Assembly: GCA_937883775.1 (NCBI GenBank)
Contig: CAKZXZ010000214.1
Location: forward strand, 1-55,330
Origin: an uncultured Paracoccaceae bacterium
GTDB taxonomy: Bacteria; Pseudomonadota; Alphaproteobacteria; Rhodobacterales; Rhodobacteraceae
Length of the DNA: 55,330 bases
Reading direction: 5' to 3'
In this document: positions 25,923 to 30,755 of the stretch, one piece after another
Layout of the letters: every line of letters begins with the position of its first letter
How positions within the stretch are numbered: position 1 is the first letter of the stretch
The notes under the pieces: generated by a model
What the model was told of the DNA's origin: nothing
Database searches by the model: none
What the model saw: the letters and a program-made list of their open reading frames with translations, nothing else
Translations under genes and position numbers: made by a program

Positions 25923-27143
25923 ATGACGACCAAGACGCCCTCAACACGCCTTCCGTTTACCTTTATCCTCGTCACGCTGGTGCTCGATGCGATGGGGATT
26001 GGGCTGATCCTGCCCGTGATGCCAGACCTGATCCGCGATGTGAATGGCGGCGATCTGGGCGAAGCGGCGGTCTGGGGCGGCGTACTGGCGACGACCTTTG
26101 CGGTGATGCAATTTCTATTTGGTCCGACGCTGGGGTCTTTGTCAGACCGCTACGGTCGTAGGCCTATCCTATTGATATCGCTTTTCGTTATGGCGGTAGA
26201 CTATCTTGTCATGGCCGTCGCTGGCACGATTTGGCTGCTGTTCCTGACCCGTGTCGTCGGGGGGATTACAGCTGCGACGCAATCTACCGCAGGTGCGTTC
26301 ATTGCCGATATCTCTCCCCCCGAGAAAAAGGCGCAGAACTTCGGCTTGATCGGTGCGGCCTTCGGAATGGGATTTATCTTCGGGCCAATGATCGGTGGCC
26401 TTCTGGCCGAATTCGGACATCGCGCGCCATTCTATGCAGCGGCGGCGCTGGCCATGGCAAACCTGGTCTTTGGCTATTTCGTGATGCCCGAAACTGTGAC
26501 GGACCGCATTCGCCGCCCCTTTGACTGGAGGCGCGCTAACCCGTTCGGCGCCTTTCGCGCGTTAGGCCAATTGCCCGGTGTAGCGCGACTTTTGCTACTC
26601 ATATTTCTCTATGAGTTCGCGTTTATCGTTTATCCTGCAACATGGGCGTTTTTCACCCAAGAGCGCTTTGGCTGGTCACCAGCAATGGTGGGCCTGTCGC
26701 TGGCATCATTTGGTGTGTCGATGGCGATCGTACAGGGCGGTATCATCCGCTGGATCATTCCCAAATTCGGAGACCGCAATACGATCATCTACGGGTTCCT
26801 GTTTAACTTTTGCGCCTTTACGGTGCTGATGCTGCTGTCAAATGGCTGGGTCGCCCTGGCCTTTACTCCGGTCACCGCGCTGGGTGCCGTCGTGACCCCT
26901 GCAGTGCAAGGCATGATGAGCCGGATCGCGAGCGACGATCAGCAAGGGGAATTGCAAGGGGTGATCGCCTCAAGCAAGGCCGTGGCGATGATTTTGTCAC
27001 CATTGGTGATGACACAGGTATTTTGGATCTTCACAAGTAGTGACGGACTGTATCTGCCAGGTGCACCTTTCGGTGTCGCGGCGGGTTTGATGTTGATCTG
27101 CTTTGCTGTCTTCGTGCTGCGCCCACGCCGCGTGATGGCTTGA
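25923..27143 (+). CDS. TCR/Tet-family MFS efflux transporter
   Basis: 406 residues with 12 predicted transmembrane segments in the inner membrane. The N-terminal half matches Tet(A)-type proton antiporters: TLVLDAMGIGLILPVMPDL in TM1, the loop 2-3 motif GSLSDRYGRRPILL, RVVGGITAATQSTAGAFIADI, and GAAFGMGFIFGPMIGG. Chromosomal homologues like this are common and need not confer tetracycline resistance; the natural substrate is unknown. It lies 55 bp after the hydrolase and 69 bp before the alcohol dehydrogenase, same strand. Confidence 0.9.
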   Translation: MTTKTPSTRLPFTFILVTLVLDAMGIGLILPVMPDLIRDVNGGDLGEAAVWGGVLATTFAVMQFLFGPTLGSLSDRYGRRPILLISLFVMAVDYLVMAVAGTIWLLFLTRVVGGITAATQSTAGAFIADISPPEKKAQNFGLIGAAFGMGFIFGPMIGGLLAEFGHRAPFYAAAALAMANLVFGYFVMPETVTDRIRRPFDWRRANPFGAFRALGQLPGVARLLLLIFLYEFAFIVYPATWAFFTQERFGWSPAMVGLSLASFGVSMAIVQGGIIRWIIPKFGDRNTIIYGFLFNFCAFTVLMLLSNGWVALAFTPVTALGAVVTPAVQGMMSRIASDDQQGELQGVIASSKAVAMILSPLVMTQVFWIFTSSDGLYLPGAPFGVAAGLMLICFAVFVLRPRRVMA

Positions 27144-27212: not shown

Positions 27213-28292
27213 ATGACCACAATCAAAGCCGCCGTATGCCATGCTTTTGGCGCCCCTCTGACCATCGAGGATGTTGAATTACGTGCGCCCCGAGGTGGCG
27301 AAATCGAGGTGAAACTGGATGCGGTCGCAATCTGCCATTCGGATATCTCTTTTGCCGATGGCGCATGGGGCGGGTCGTTGCCTGCCGTTTATGGGCATGA
27401 GGCCGCCGGACGGGTGACCGCAGTGGGGGACGGCGCGTCTGTTCCTGTAGGCGCATCGGTCGTTGTCACATTGATCCGGGCATGCGGAACCTGCCCAAAT
27501 TGTGCGACCGGCAAACCGACAATCTGCGAGACACCATATGATGGGGATCACGGGCCGCTCAAAACCTCCCAAGGTGGTAAACTGCACCAGGCGATGGCCT
27601 GCGGAGCGTTTGCCGAGAAGGTTGTCGTGGATCAGTCGCAGGTCGTAGTGATTTCAGATGATCTGCCAAAGGATTCGGCGGCGCTCATCTCGTGCGGGGT
27701 TATTACGGGCGTGGGGGCTGTGGTGAATGCTGCAGGATTGCGCGCAGGACAAGACGTTGTCGTCATCGGCGCGGGCGGCGTCGGACTGAACGCGATCCAG
27801 GGCGCGCGGATCGCGGGCGCACGACGCATCGTGGCAGTGGATATGTCCGACGAAAAGTTAGCCATGGCCAGGGAGTTTGGGGCGACGGACGGCGTCTTGG
27901 CGACTGAACCCAAACCATGGAAAGCGGCGTTCAAAGCCATGGGGCGTGGGGCCGATGCGGTGATCGTCACCGTCGGTGCAATCCCGGCTTATGACAGCGC
28001 ACCGCGCTATTTGGCAGCAGGTGGAAAGGTCGTCATGGTCGGCATGCCCCATAGTGGCCAAGCCTCTAGCTATGAGCCGGTCATTCTGGCAGCAACGGGC
28101 CAAGGCATGGTTGGATCAAAGATGGGCGATGTTGTTATTCAGCGGGATATTCCATGGATGGTGGATCTATATAGCCAAGGACGGCTGAAGCTGGACGAGC
28201 TGATCTCGGGCCGCTGGTCATTGGATCAAATCAATGAAGCGATTGCAGACACCAAAGGTGGGGCAGCCAAACGCAATGTGATTATCTTCTGA
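27213..28292 (+). CDS. Zinc-dependent alcohol dehydrogenase (MDR family)
   Basis: 359 residues. Catalytic zinc site: C41 in AICHSD, H62/E63 in YGHEAAG, and a third ligand in ISCGVITGVGA. Structural zinc: C91, C94, C97 and C105 in ACGTCPNCATGKPTIC. The NAD(P) fold has GAGGVGLNAIQGA with VDMSDEK after it. Its stop overlaps the ATG of the enolase-superfamily dehydratase by one base, so the two act together, probably in sugar or sugar-acid breakdown. Substrate not determinable. RBS is GGGAGA. Confidence 0.9.
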   Translation: MTTIKAAVCHAFGAPLTIEDVELRAPRGGEIEVKLDAVAICHSDISFADGAWGGSLPAVYGHEAAGRVTAVGDGASVPVGASVVVTLIRACGTCPNCATGKPTICETPYDGDHGPLKTSQGGKLHQAMACGAFAEKVVVDQSQVVVISDDLPKDSAALISCGVITGVGAVVNAAGLRAGQDVVVIGAGGVGLNAIQGARIAGARRIVAVDMSDEKLAMAREFGATDGVLATEPKPWKAAFKAMGRGADAVIVTVGAIPAYDSAPRYLAAGGKVVMVGMPHSGQASSYEPVILAATGQGMVGSKMGDVVIQRDIPWMVDLYSQGRLKLDELISGRWSLDQINEAIADTKGGAAKRNVIIF

Positions 28293-29506
28293 TGCGGCTG
28301 CAAAACCTTCAGATTTTCACTGTAGCGCCCCCTGCCCCTGGTTGGGGGGGACGGTACTGGATCTTTGTCAAACTGACGACCGCCTGCGGGATTGATGGGG
28401 TTGGCGAATGCTACGCATCCTCTGTCGGACCAAAGGCAATGGAAGCAGTGATTGAGGATGTTTTTTCCCGCCACATGGAAGGCGAAAGCCCCGAAAATAT
28501 TGAACTGATGTTCCGCCGAGCTTACTCTGCGGGCTTCACACAGCGACCTGATCTGACTGTCATGGGCGCATTCTCAGGACTTGAGATCGCGTGCTGGGAC
28601 ATCCTTGGAAAGGCGCGCGAACGGCCCGTTTATGCGCTGCTGGGCGGCAAGGTGACACCGCGGGTCCGCTGCTATACCTATCTTTACCCACTGTCCGCCC
28701 ATGATCCGGCAGCCTTCTGGACCTCACCTGATCTGGCAGCTGAGGCAGCATCAGACGCGGTGGATCGCGGCTATACCGCAGTAAAATTTGACCCCGCGGG
28801 GCCTTACACTGTTTACAGCGGTCACCAACCCGCGATGAGCGATATCTCGCGCTCGGTCGCGTTCTGCAAAGCGATCCGTGAAGCTGTAGGTGACCGCGCG
28901 GATTTGCTGTTTGGTACACATGGTCAATTTTCGACAGGCGGTGCCATCCGGCTGGCCAAAGCGTTAGAGCCCTATGCTCCACTTTGGTACGAAGAACCGA
29001 TCCCACCAGATAACACCGCGCAAATGGCGCGTGTCGCCGGCGCGACATCAATCCCGGTGGCAACAGGCGAACGTCTGACCACAAAGGCCGAATTTGCACC
29101 TATTCTACGTCAGGGGGCTGCAACAATCCTGCAACCTGCCTTGGGACGTGTGGGGGGGATCTGGGAGGCCAAGAAGATCGCCGCACTAGCCGAGGTCTAT
29201 AACGCGCAGATGGCACCCCACCTTTATGCCGGTCCCGTGGAATGGACGGCAAACCTGCATTTCGGAACATCGATCCCAAACCTGCTGATGGCCGAGACAA
29301 TCGAAACCGACTTTCATGATCGGCTGATCGGCGGCGCGATCTGCGTTGATGATGGCTATGTTGCGCTTTCAGACGCGCCCGGACTAGGCATCACGCTGAA
29401 CGAAGACTTGGCCCGCGCGCATCCCTATGACGGCGATAAACTCCACCTTGAGATGCAAAGCACACCTTGTGATTATCAAGACGGAAATGACTTTCAAGGC
29501 GGCTAG
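28292..29506 (+). CDS. Mandelate racemase/muconate lactonizing enzyme family protein
   Basis: 404 residues. Enolase superfamily: capping domain (about 1-125), then a TIM barrel with K165 in VKFDPAG, H210 in FGTHGQ, E234/E235 in WYEEPIP, E260 in ATGERL, and H310 in APHLYAG. In galactonate dehydratase the first metal ligand is the Asp of DFHGR; here the equivalent position is G208 (GTHG), a pattern I recall from an unassigned acid-sugar dehydratase group. Coupled to the alcohol dehydrogenase, so it probably dehydrates a sugar acid made by, or feeding, that enzyme. Confidence 0.87.
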   Translation: MRLQNLQIFTVAPPAPGWGGRYWIFVKLTTACGIDGVGECYASSVGPKAMEAVIEDVFSRHMEGESPENIELMFRRAYSAGFTQRPDLTVMGAFSGLEIACWDILGKARERPVYALLGGKVTPRVRCYTYLYPLSAHDPAAFWTSPDLAAEAASDAVDRGYTAVKFDPAGPYTVYSGHQPAMSDISRSVAFCKAIREAVGDRADLLFGTHGQFSTGGAIRLAKALEPYAPLWYEEPIPPDNTAQMARVAGATSIPVATGERLTTKAEFAPILRQGAATILQPALGRVGGIWEAKKIAALAEVYNAQMAPHLYAGPVEWTANLHFGTSIPNLLMAETIETDFHDRLIGGAICVDDGYVALSDAPGLGITLNEDLARAHPYDGDKLHLEMQSTPCDYQDGNDFQGG

Positions 29507-29512
29507 ACGACC

Positions 29513-30127
29513 TTAGCGGCGCAGCCACCCCCGCAGTTCAGCGATGACCCCTGCTGTCGCAAGCAGAACCAAGCTACATAGGACGATCTTTGACGGGGTG
29601 CCCATTGTCCCTTCGATCAGCACTGCATGCAGCACGCTGCCTGTGACGATCAGAACCGCCAATGCCGTATGTGCGATGCGCCATGTCTGAAAGGGCAAGC
29701 GGCGGCGAAGTGCAGCCAGAGCGGCAGCGGCAAAAATAGCCCACATTGCCAGAACGCCCCAAACGGCAAAGGGTGTAGGCGAGACGAACAAGAGGGCGTC
29801 GATCACATCGGGTGGACTAGTGATCCACAGCGCCACAACATGGATCAGAACGGCAAGGACGAGTGCAGCACCAATCCACCCATGTATGCGGCGGCTTTGT
29901 CGCGGATGCAGCCCGGCGATCCGACCCCCTGCTAAAAGCGGCTGGATCAGCAAAAGCGCAAGCGCTGCGACACCGGAAAGCCCACCAGTGATGTAGATCG
30001 GATCACGCCATTGAAGCAGCGGGCTAGTCGCCGCGGCATAAAGCGATGCGATGATTGTAAGCAGCGAGATCGTAACGATCAGAGCGTTTTGACGCCCTTT
30101 GATTGTGCGCCGGGTTGCTTGGCTCAC
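29513..30127 (-). CDS. Ferric reductase-like haem membrane protein (MsrQ-like)
   Basis: 204 residues with about six transmembrane segments. Two pairs of histidines have the bis-haem spacing H-x13-H: H82/H96 (IHGWIG, LIHVV) and H153/H167 (IAHTAL, VLHAV). This is the ferric reductase transmembrane pattern (PF01794) also found in MsrQ. There is no FAD/NAD domain, so electrons must come from another donor. The start is GTG at 30125-30127, overlapping the stop of the Tat-exported gene (GTGA). The pair suggests electron delivery across the inner membrane to the exported protein. Confidence 0.85.
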   Translation of the reverse strand: MSQATRRTIKGRQNALIVTISLLTIIASLYAAATSPLLQWRDPIYITGGLSGVAALALLLIQPLLAGGRIAGLHPRQSRRIHGWIGAALVLAVLIHVVALWITSPPDVIDALLFVSPTPFAVWGVLAMWAIFAAAALAALRRRLPFQTWRIAHTALAVLIVTGSVLHAVLIEGTMGTPSKIVLCSLVLLATAGVIAELRGWLRR

Positions 30128-30615
30128 ACCGGCTGAAGCACGAAATCAACGGCAAGGGTCGTATCGCTGGCGCTTGGCATGATCGGACGCAGGAACACTG
30201 TCTGGAACTCTGCGTCATCATCATAGGCCAGATGCCCATGCGGTTGACCAAACGCAGGAACGATCTGCGGCATCTCAAGCCGAAAGGCACCATTGGCATC
30301 GGTAAGCGTGGCTCCATGGCTATGGGCATCCCGTTCGTGACCTTCAGTGGTATGTGCCCAGATCTGGATGCGTCTATCTTGCAGCGGAGCCCCATCACCC
30401 GCCCGCCGCACAGTGCCGGTCATCCAGAACCCACCCCCGCCGATCCGATCCACAATCGGCGCGCCGGGACGATAATTGTTGGCGCCACCCCGCATGGTGG
30501 GCGTCGGTGCGAGGCCCGCTGCGCGGGCCGGAACAAGCAAGCCGGACGCACCGGTGACAAAGGCCGCTCCAGCGGCGGTCAGAAGAGTTCGGCGTGTCGT
30601 ATAGGGTTGTGTCAT
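30124..30615 (-). CDS. Tat-exported intradiol ring-cleavage dioxygenase-like protein
   Basis: 163 residues from the ATG at 30613-30615. The N-terminus TTRRTLLTAAGAAFVTGASG is a twin-arginine signal. The mature part has the intradiol dioxygenase beta-sandwich pattern: GTVRRAGDGAPLQDRRIQIWAHTTEG, LTDANGAFRLEMP, and QPHGHLAY in place of the usual PAHIHF. The HxH ligands (H126, H128) are kept. The two tyrosine iron ligands are not visible where expected; instead histidines cluster at 88, 93, 98 and 100. It is therefore probably a metal protein with another reaction. Coupled to the haem membrane protein. Confidence 0.78.
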   Translation of the reverse strand: MTQPYTTRRTLLTAAGAAFVTGASGLLVPARAAGLAPTPTMRGGANNYRPGAPIVDRIGGGGFWMTGTVRRAGDGAPLQDRRIQIWAHTTEGHERDAHSHGATLTDANGAFRLEMPQIVPAFGQPHGHLAYDDDAEFQTVFLRPIMPSASDTTLAVDFVLQPV

Positions 30616-30755
30616 GGTCGGCACTCCATCAAACGAGTATGCTTTAGATAATAGGTTGCTCGGACCTGTTTCCGAAGACCTGCCGCCCGACAAATACGTC
30701 ACGCCTGCGTGAAGTGCGCGTAAACTGGCTCAGTTCCTTTGCTATCCGGTCCGAA

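Follow-up and report, generated by a model that had tools for sequence, protein, structure and literature searches.

A conserved alphaproteobacterial gene pair encoding a predicted Tat-exported protein of intradiol dioxygenase fold and a putative two-haem membrane protein

The overlap between a gene for an exported, intradiol-like protein and a gene for a haem membrane protein raises the question of whether the two products form a periplasmic redox pair and of what such a pair would do. The earlier note on this DNA had proposed, by analogy with MsrPQ, that electrons from the inner membrane could drive a periplasmic metal enzyme. MsrPQ is the best-known example of an inner-membrane haem protein that powers a periplasmic repair enzyme. 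To study this proposal, we analysed the locus in its window, i.e., the whole stretch of 55,330 nucleotides, together with its counterparts in other genomes. Both minus-strand open reading frames and their GTGA overlap were found as the note had described them (Table 1).

Table 1. Features of the gene pair and of its upstream region, in coordinates of the window.
Feature	Position	Strand	Description	Basis
Exported protein gene	30124..30615	minus	163 aa, Tat (RR) signal, predicted intradiol-dioxygenase fold	ORF, conservation, fold model
Membrane protein gene	29513..30127	minus	204 aa, six predicted helices, Ferric_reduct domain, without FNR/flavin domain	PF01794, model, conservation
GTGA overlap of the exported and membrane protein genes	30124..30127	minus	GTG 30127-30125, TGA 30126-30124	sequence
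Palindrome TCACGCAGGCGTGA	30699..30712	minus	putative operator/activator site; common to msrA and similar at msrP in the same genome	
Promoter-like element TCGGAA-N16-TATTAT	30648..30675	minus		read from aligned upstream sequences

The association of the two genes is not peculiar to this genome. The note had held that rare co-occurrence elsewhere would speak against its idea, and the opposite was observed: in 101 out of 101 related loci, the exported gene is immediately followed by the membrane gene, at about -15 to +120 bases from the aligned ends. These loci were drawn from whole-genome samples and from GTDB contigs, the latter represented by their best 80 loci, and a few genomes are present in both collections. 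In a sample of 385 genomes of Alphaproteobacteria, clear matches to both families occur in the same 11 genomes; all other hits are marginal, one of them to the exported query and two to ferric reductases of the long type. Both genes are also found together in 16 more loci, including seven plasmid copies, although the window accounts for one of the 16 and some others come from genomes counted earlier. The pairing of the two families is far beyond chance, which supports the view that the genes are a conserved, dedicated pair. We found no third conserved neighbour gene around 67 loci. Outside the Alphaproteobacteria, the pair was found neither in 299 genomes of the phylum, where every match belonged to the same class, nor among plasmids or the GTDB contig matches, these being the best 80 loci. 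A literature search for a description of the exported/membrane protein pair retrieved none, and the databases name its members "twin-arginine translocation pathway signal" and "ferric reductase-like transmembrane domain-containing protein".

Some individual loci have features of their own. In a sister species, the copy at G386:C20:39165-39646 is split into two overlapping match pieces (L020 and L024), apparently in different frames near residues 29-50, which looks like a frameshift or an assembly error. On a Qingshengfaniella plasmid (L253), msrB-msrA lies about 4 kb upstream of a divergent copy of the pair. On a plasmid of Rhodovulum sp. P5 (L257), the genes that flank the pair encode a c-type cytochrome and a protein with a cytochrome b/b6 domain. 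In the window, a zinc alcohol dehydrogenase gene and a galactonate-dehydratase-like enolase gene run towards the pair from the plus strand (27213-29506); they form an apparent sugar-acid cassette that is not conserved with the pair elsewhere. The MFS transporter at 25923-27143 resembles Tet(A/B/C/D) efflux proteins (342.5 bits against a family cut-off of 475) and is probably an ordinary efflux pump.

The membrane protein scores 41.1 bits against PF01794 (cut-off 28), and its model (pLDDT 94.4) is closest in fold to cytochrome b561 (VIA Z 17.4) and to NOX transmembrane domains (VIA Z 16.6). The two H-x13-H pairs pointed out in the earlier note, H82-x13-H96 and H153-x13-H167, are invariant in 101 sequences, alignment gaps aside, and the protein has no reductase domain, again in agreement with the note. 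As judged from sequence and model, the PF01794 score, the NOX-like fold and the four predicted haem histidines place it in the FRD/NOX superfamily. Apart from members of the pair, its nearest matches are long proteins in which the motifs HPFSISS and GGVGLAP, typical of FAD/NADPH domains, are present. It shares with NOX and the long bacterial ferric reductases the transmembrane fold and four x13-spaced haem histidines, but it lacks their FAD/NADPH domain and has an obligate exported partner. In a survey of the FRD superfamily, short forms with all four histidines were few and close to long forms (PMC3591440). The charge distribution places both termini in the cytoplasm. The predicted periplasmic loops (residues 34-43, 102-119 and 170-178, with the sequences SPLLxWRDP, ITSPPDVIDALLFxSPTP, and LIEGTM) are strongly conserved, with a mean entropy of 0.50-0.97, and the cytoplasmic loops are far less so (1.79-2.54). 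Such conservation of the periplasmic side is the pattern expected of a docking face.

The direction of electron flow across this protein could in principle be reversed: the exported protein would then oxidise superoxide or a substrate, and the electrons would enter the quinone pool through the haem protein. Membrane b cytochromes are able to work either way, and a four-helix membrane superoxide oxidase of a different type is reported to move electrons from superoxide to quinone (PMC11869295). The nearest relatives beyond the pair are nonetheless long, outward-reducing ferric reductases with FAD/NADPH motifs, and we regard reverse flow as improbable.

The description of the membrane protein as MsrQ-like in the earlier note holds in one respect, since it is a predicted haem membrane partner without a reductase domain, but fails in others: it has four haem histidines, the first at a position where MsrQ has an arginine, and it does not match the MsrQ model. 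The NCBIfam MsrQ model gave no match to the window's protein at E<=1 and none to 42 members of its family, whereas the MsrQ of the same genome passes it (146.8 against 130). That MsrQ belongs to a separate, true MsrPQ encoded elsewhere in the genome, of which both proteins score above the model cut-offs. It carries an arginine 14 residues before the TM3 histidine, where the membrane protein has H82; in MsrQ generally, arginine replaces the cytoplasm-proximal histidine of TM3 (PMC3591440). On these grounds (the separate MsrQ, H82, and the missing NCBIfam match), we rejected the membrane protein as an MsrQ. Its partner in all loci is the intradiol-like protein, not the MsrP molybdoenzyme. Hence, the pair is not MsrPQ, and because the genome already holds MsrPQ, it is not a replacement for it either.

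The exported protein starts with a sequence (TRRTLLTA...ARA) that includes an RR signal, an h-region and an AxA site, with R8R9 at least 97% conserved. The Pfam TAT_signal model produced weak matches only, in 6 of 49 exported proteins. From these signal features the protein is predicted to be a Tat substrate. Its other Pfam matches are also below threshold, including PF00775 at 13.2 bits (cut-off 27.3). The model of the protein, with 49 close sequences, is of middling confidence (pLDDT 78) and finds intradiol dioxygenases as its closest folds (Foldseek E 2e-8; VIA Z 13.6, rmsd 2.7, 126 residues), followed by carboxypeptidase transthyretin-like domains at VIA Z 9.3 and below. When its profile was compared with that of true intradiols from related genomes, the probability was 90.8 and the HxH pairs were aligned.

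The residues of the intradiol site are largely replaced in this fold. Invariant positions of the exported protein are M41, Y48, W86, E94, H100, M115, F122, H126, and H128; Y48 and Y131 are the only conserved tyrosines, and the family has no conserved cysteine. The earlier note had read the HxH of intradiol dioxygenases as kept and the tyrosine ligands as missing. Both readings were confirmed: H126-x-H128 is present, and neither intradiol ligand position holds a tyrosine. The complete Tyr2-His2 iron site that would have told against the note's idea is, by sequence, absent. In all the true intradiols aligned, a glycine stands at W+6 and the tyrosine ligand at W+8 (W147/G153/Y155 in A3 and W104/G110/Y112 in A4). 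In that register, the exported protein has W86, G92, and the invariant E94 at the place of the first tyrosine ligand, an assignment that rests on the W+6/W+8 register because the profile alignment is gapped at this position. The region of the second tyrosine ligand contains phenylalanine and no tyrosine between 112 and 125, and the catalytic arginine three residues before HxH is replaced by an invariant glycine, G123. The histidine cluster described in the note survives only in part: H100 is invariant, H93 and H98 are conserved in 82% and 46% of the sequences, respectively, and a divergent clade (L023, L253) has Ala for H88, Gly for H93, and Asn for H98. These replacements leave E94, H100, H126, and H128 as invariant ligand candidates. 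On conservation, the metal site would most likely consist of these four residues, plus H88 in the main clade.

The exported protein is thus an intradiol dioxygenase by its modelled fold and, as far as its residues indicate, not by its active site. It has the fold and the HxH pair in common with the enzymes of PF00775 (catechol 1,2- and protocatechuate 3,4-dioxygenase), and differs from them by Glu94 in place of the first tyrosine, by the absence of the second tyrosine and of the catalytic arginine, and by the additional invariant H100. We ruled it out as a normal intradiol dioxygenase on its absent ligands. The broader idea of an ordinary ring-cleaving enzyme next to an incidental membrane protein has the fold in its favour, but it has to contend with the same missing residues, the strict pairing with the membrane gene, the PF00775 score below cut-off and the lack of any other intradiol dioxygenase in three genomes of the genus, and we give it hardly any weight.

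The region upstream of the exported gene provides information on the processes in which the pair may take part. The promoter-like element of Table 1 occurs in many relatives in the conserved form CTCGGAA-N15-GCTAT, and the palindrome has the consensus TCACGAAACCGTGA with the core TCACG-N4-CGTGA. In pair-bearing genomes, the core pattern has 48 matches, compared with 7 for a reversed control. Scores of at least 9/10 were obtained upstream of the exported gene in 37 of 83 cases (shuffles 1.0%) and upstream of exported msrA in 23 of 36, inside a 35-base band (shuffles 1.8%). A second copy precedes the exported MsrA gene in the three genomes of the window's genus (3/3). With a motif trained on the exported gene alone, 83% of exported msrA genes have an upstream score of at least 9 bits, compared with 16% of cytosolic ones and 5.5% of random windows. 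At msrP in pair-bearing genomes, 12 of 24 upstream regions reach at least 10 bits, against 0 of 93 random windows; many of these sites lie 79-91 bases from one reference point, and that of the window's own genome scores 19.0 bits. All these counts come from related species and are not independent samples. The palindrome is weak or absent at a substantial share of loci. Between the three operons there are slight differences in the site (TCACG versus TCACC), and one common regulator is therefore likely but unproven.

What is new here is the presence of the palindrome upstream of the pair and, at tightly fixed positions, upstream of msrPQ and exported msrA, both in this genome and in related ones. 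As a sequence pattern, it suggests a regulon for the repair of methionine sulfoxide in the periplasm, with the pair as one of its members. The gene content of the family genomes adds no clear association: exported MsrA is present in 8 of 12 genomes with the pair and in 13 of 25 without it. An MsrA gene adjoining the pair in one genome (G380) was dropped, being cytosolic and having no strong motif, and several other palindrome matches, which fall within coding regions or ahead of unrelated genes, were taken as chance. In a distant genome (G361, L222, 5625-8890), genes for an OmpR-type response regulator and an ECF sigma factor are followed by a perfect palindrome and by ccdA-like and TlpA-like genes, which makes this locus a candidate regulator neighbourhood for the motif. 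At another locus (L223, G000:C148:10000-15883), a divergent gene for a fasciclin-domain protein lies upstream of msrPQ, and the palindrome region is possibly common to both. In Escherichia coli, HprR governs msrPQ, and the inverted-repeat layout of the palindrome resembles that of the HprR site. The DNA sequence recognised by HprR in that species is also the one recognised by the copper sensor CusR (PMC8249747).

This last link between oxidant and copper responses is relevant to a role in metal handling, in which the haem protein would reduce ferric or cupric ions and the exported protein would bind the metal as a chaperone or detoxifier. Ferric reductases, cupric reductases and STEAP all belong to the superfamily of the membrane protein (PMC3591440), and the pair has conserved histidines and methionines. 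However, neither a metal transporter nor a copper gene was found as a conserved neighbour, and the common cis-element points to genes for the repair of methionine sulfoxide. Tat export, moreover, suggests that a cofactor is inserted in the cytoplasm. We see metal handling as an unlikely role, if the one to be taken most seriously among the alternatives.

The cis-element common to the pair, msrPQ, and exported msrA also strengthens the analogy with MsrPQ (YedYZ) on which the earlier note had built. Both systems would combine a Tat-exported catalytic subunit with a haem b membrane subunit of six helices that lacks a reductase domain, and within the same genomes related cis-elements precede both; they differ in the exported partner, which has a predicted intradiol fold here and a molybdopterin fold in MsrP. 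By analogy, it is plausible that the pair works like MsrPQ. Taken literally, this likeness and the cis-element could make the exported protein a functional counterpart of MsrP, i.e., a molybdenum-free reductase of methionine (or other) sulfoxides. Such an activity would duplicate MsrPQ in the same genome and MsrP-like proteins in 24 of 29 pair-bearing genomes, often alongside MsrA, and we know of no reductase of sulfoxide chemistry with an intradiol fold. This identity is therefore doubtful, somewhat more so than metal handling.

Considering the pairing, the modelled folds, the conserved residues and the common cis-element, we lean slightly towards a haem-fed periplasmic non-haem metalloprotein that acts on an oxidant or an oxidation product. 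The membrane protein would be a two-haem b-type cytochrome, most likely receiving electrons from quinol or from a cytosolic flavin reductase. Its two haems would carry them to the periplasmic face and on to the Tat-exported protein, which would thereby be reduced. This partner is modelled as a small beta-sandwich of intradiol fold, and a different metal site would stand in place of the Tyr2His2 Fe(III) site. The reduced metalloprotein would most likely remove an oxidant (superoxide, peroxide, or hypochlorous acid) or reverse a periplasmic oxidation product, beside MsrPQ and exported MsrA and under an apparently common transcriptional regulator. Superoxide reductases (desulfoferrodoxin, neelaredoxin) are beta-sandwich proteins with a His-rich non-haem metal that reduce an oxidant with external electrons. 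The likeness to them is one of concept, as we saw no sequence relation, and their Fe(His)4Cys centre has no equivalent in the window's exported protein, which lacks cysteine. A more specific proposal, which we put forward only tentatively, is that a 3-His-1-Glu site (4-His-1-Glu in the main clade) in an intradiol fold and a NOX-like two-haem protein may together be a periplasmic oxidant reductase, a new enzyme class in a conserved alphaproteobacterial periplasmic-oxidation regulon with MsrPQ and MsrA.

If the pair does work in this way, it would provide a second, unrelated catalytic partner for the MsrPQ architecture and would show that an intradiol scaffold, once given other metal ligands, can serve a reductive task. 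The pair is widespread in marine and soil Alphaproteobacteria, where it is named in databases by signal or domain only, and the common palindrome offers a regulon and a stress condition that are directly open to test.
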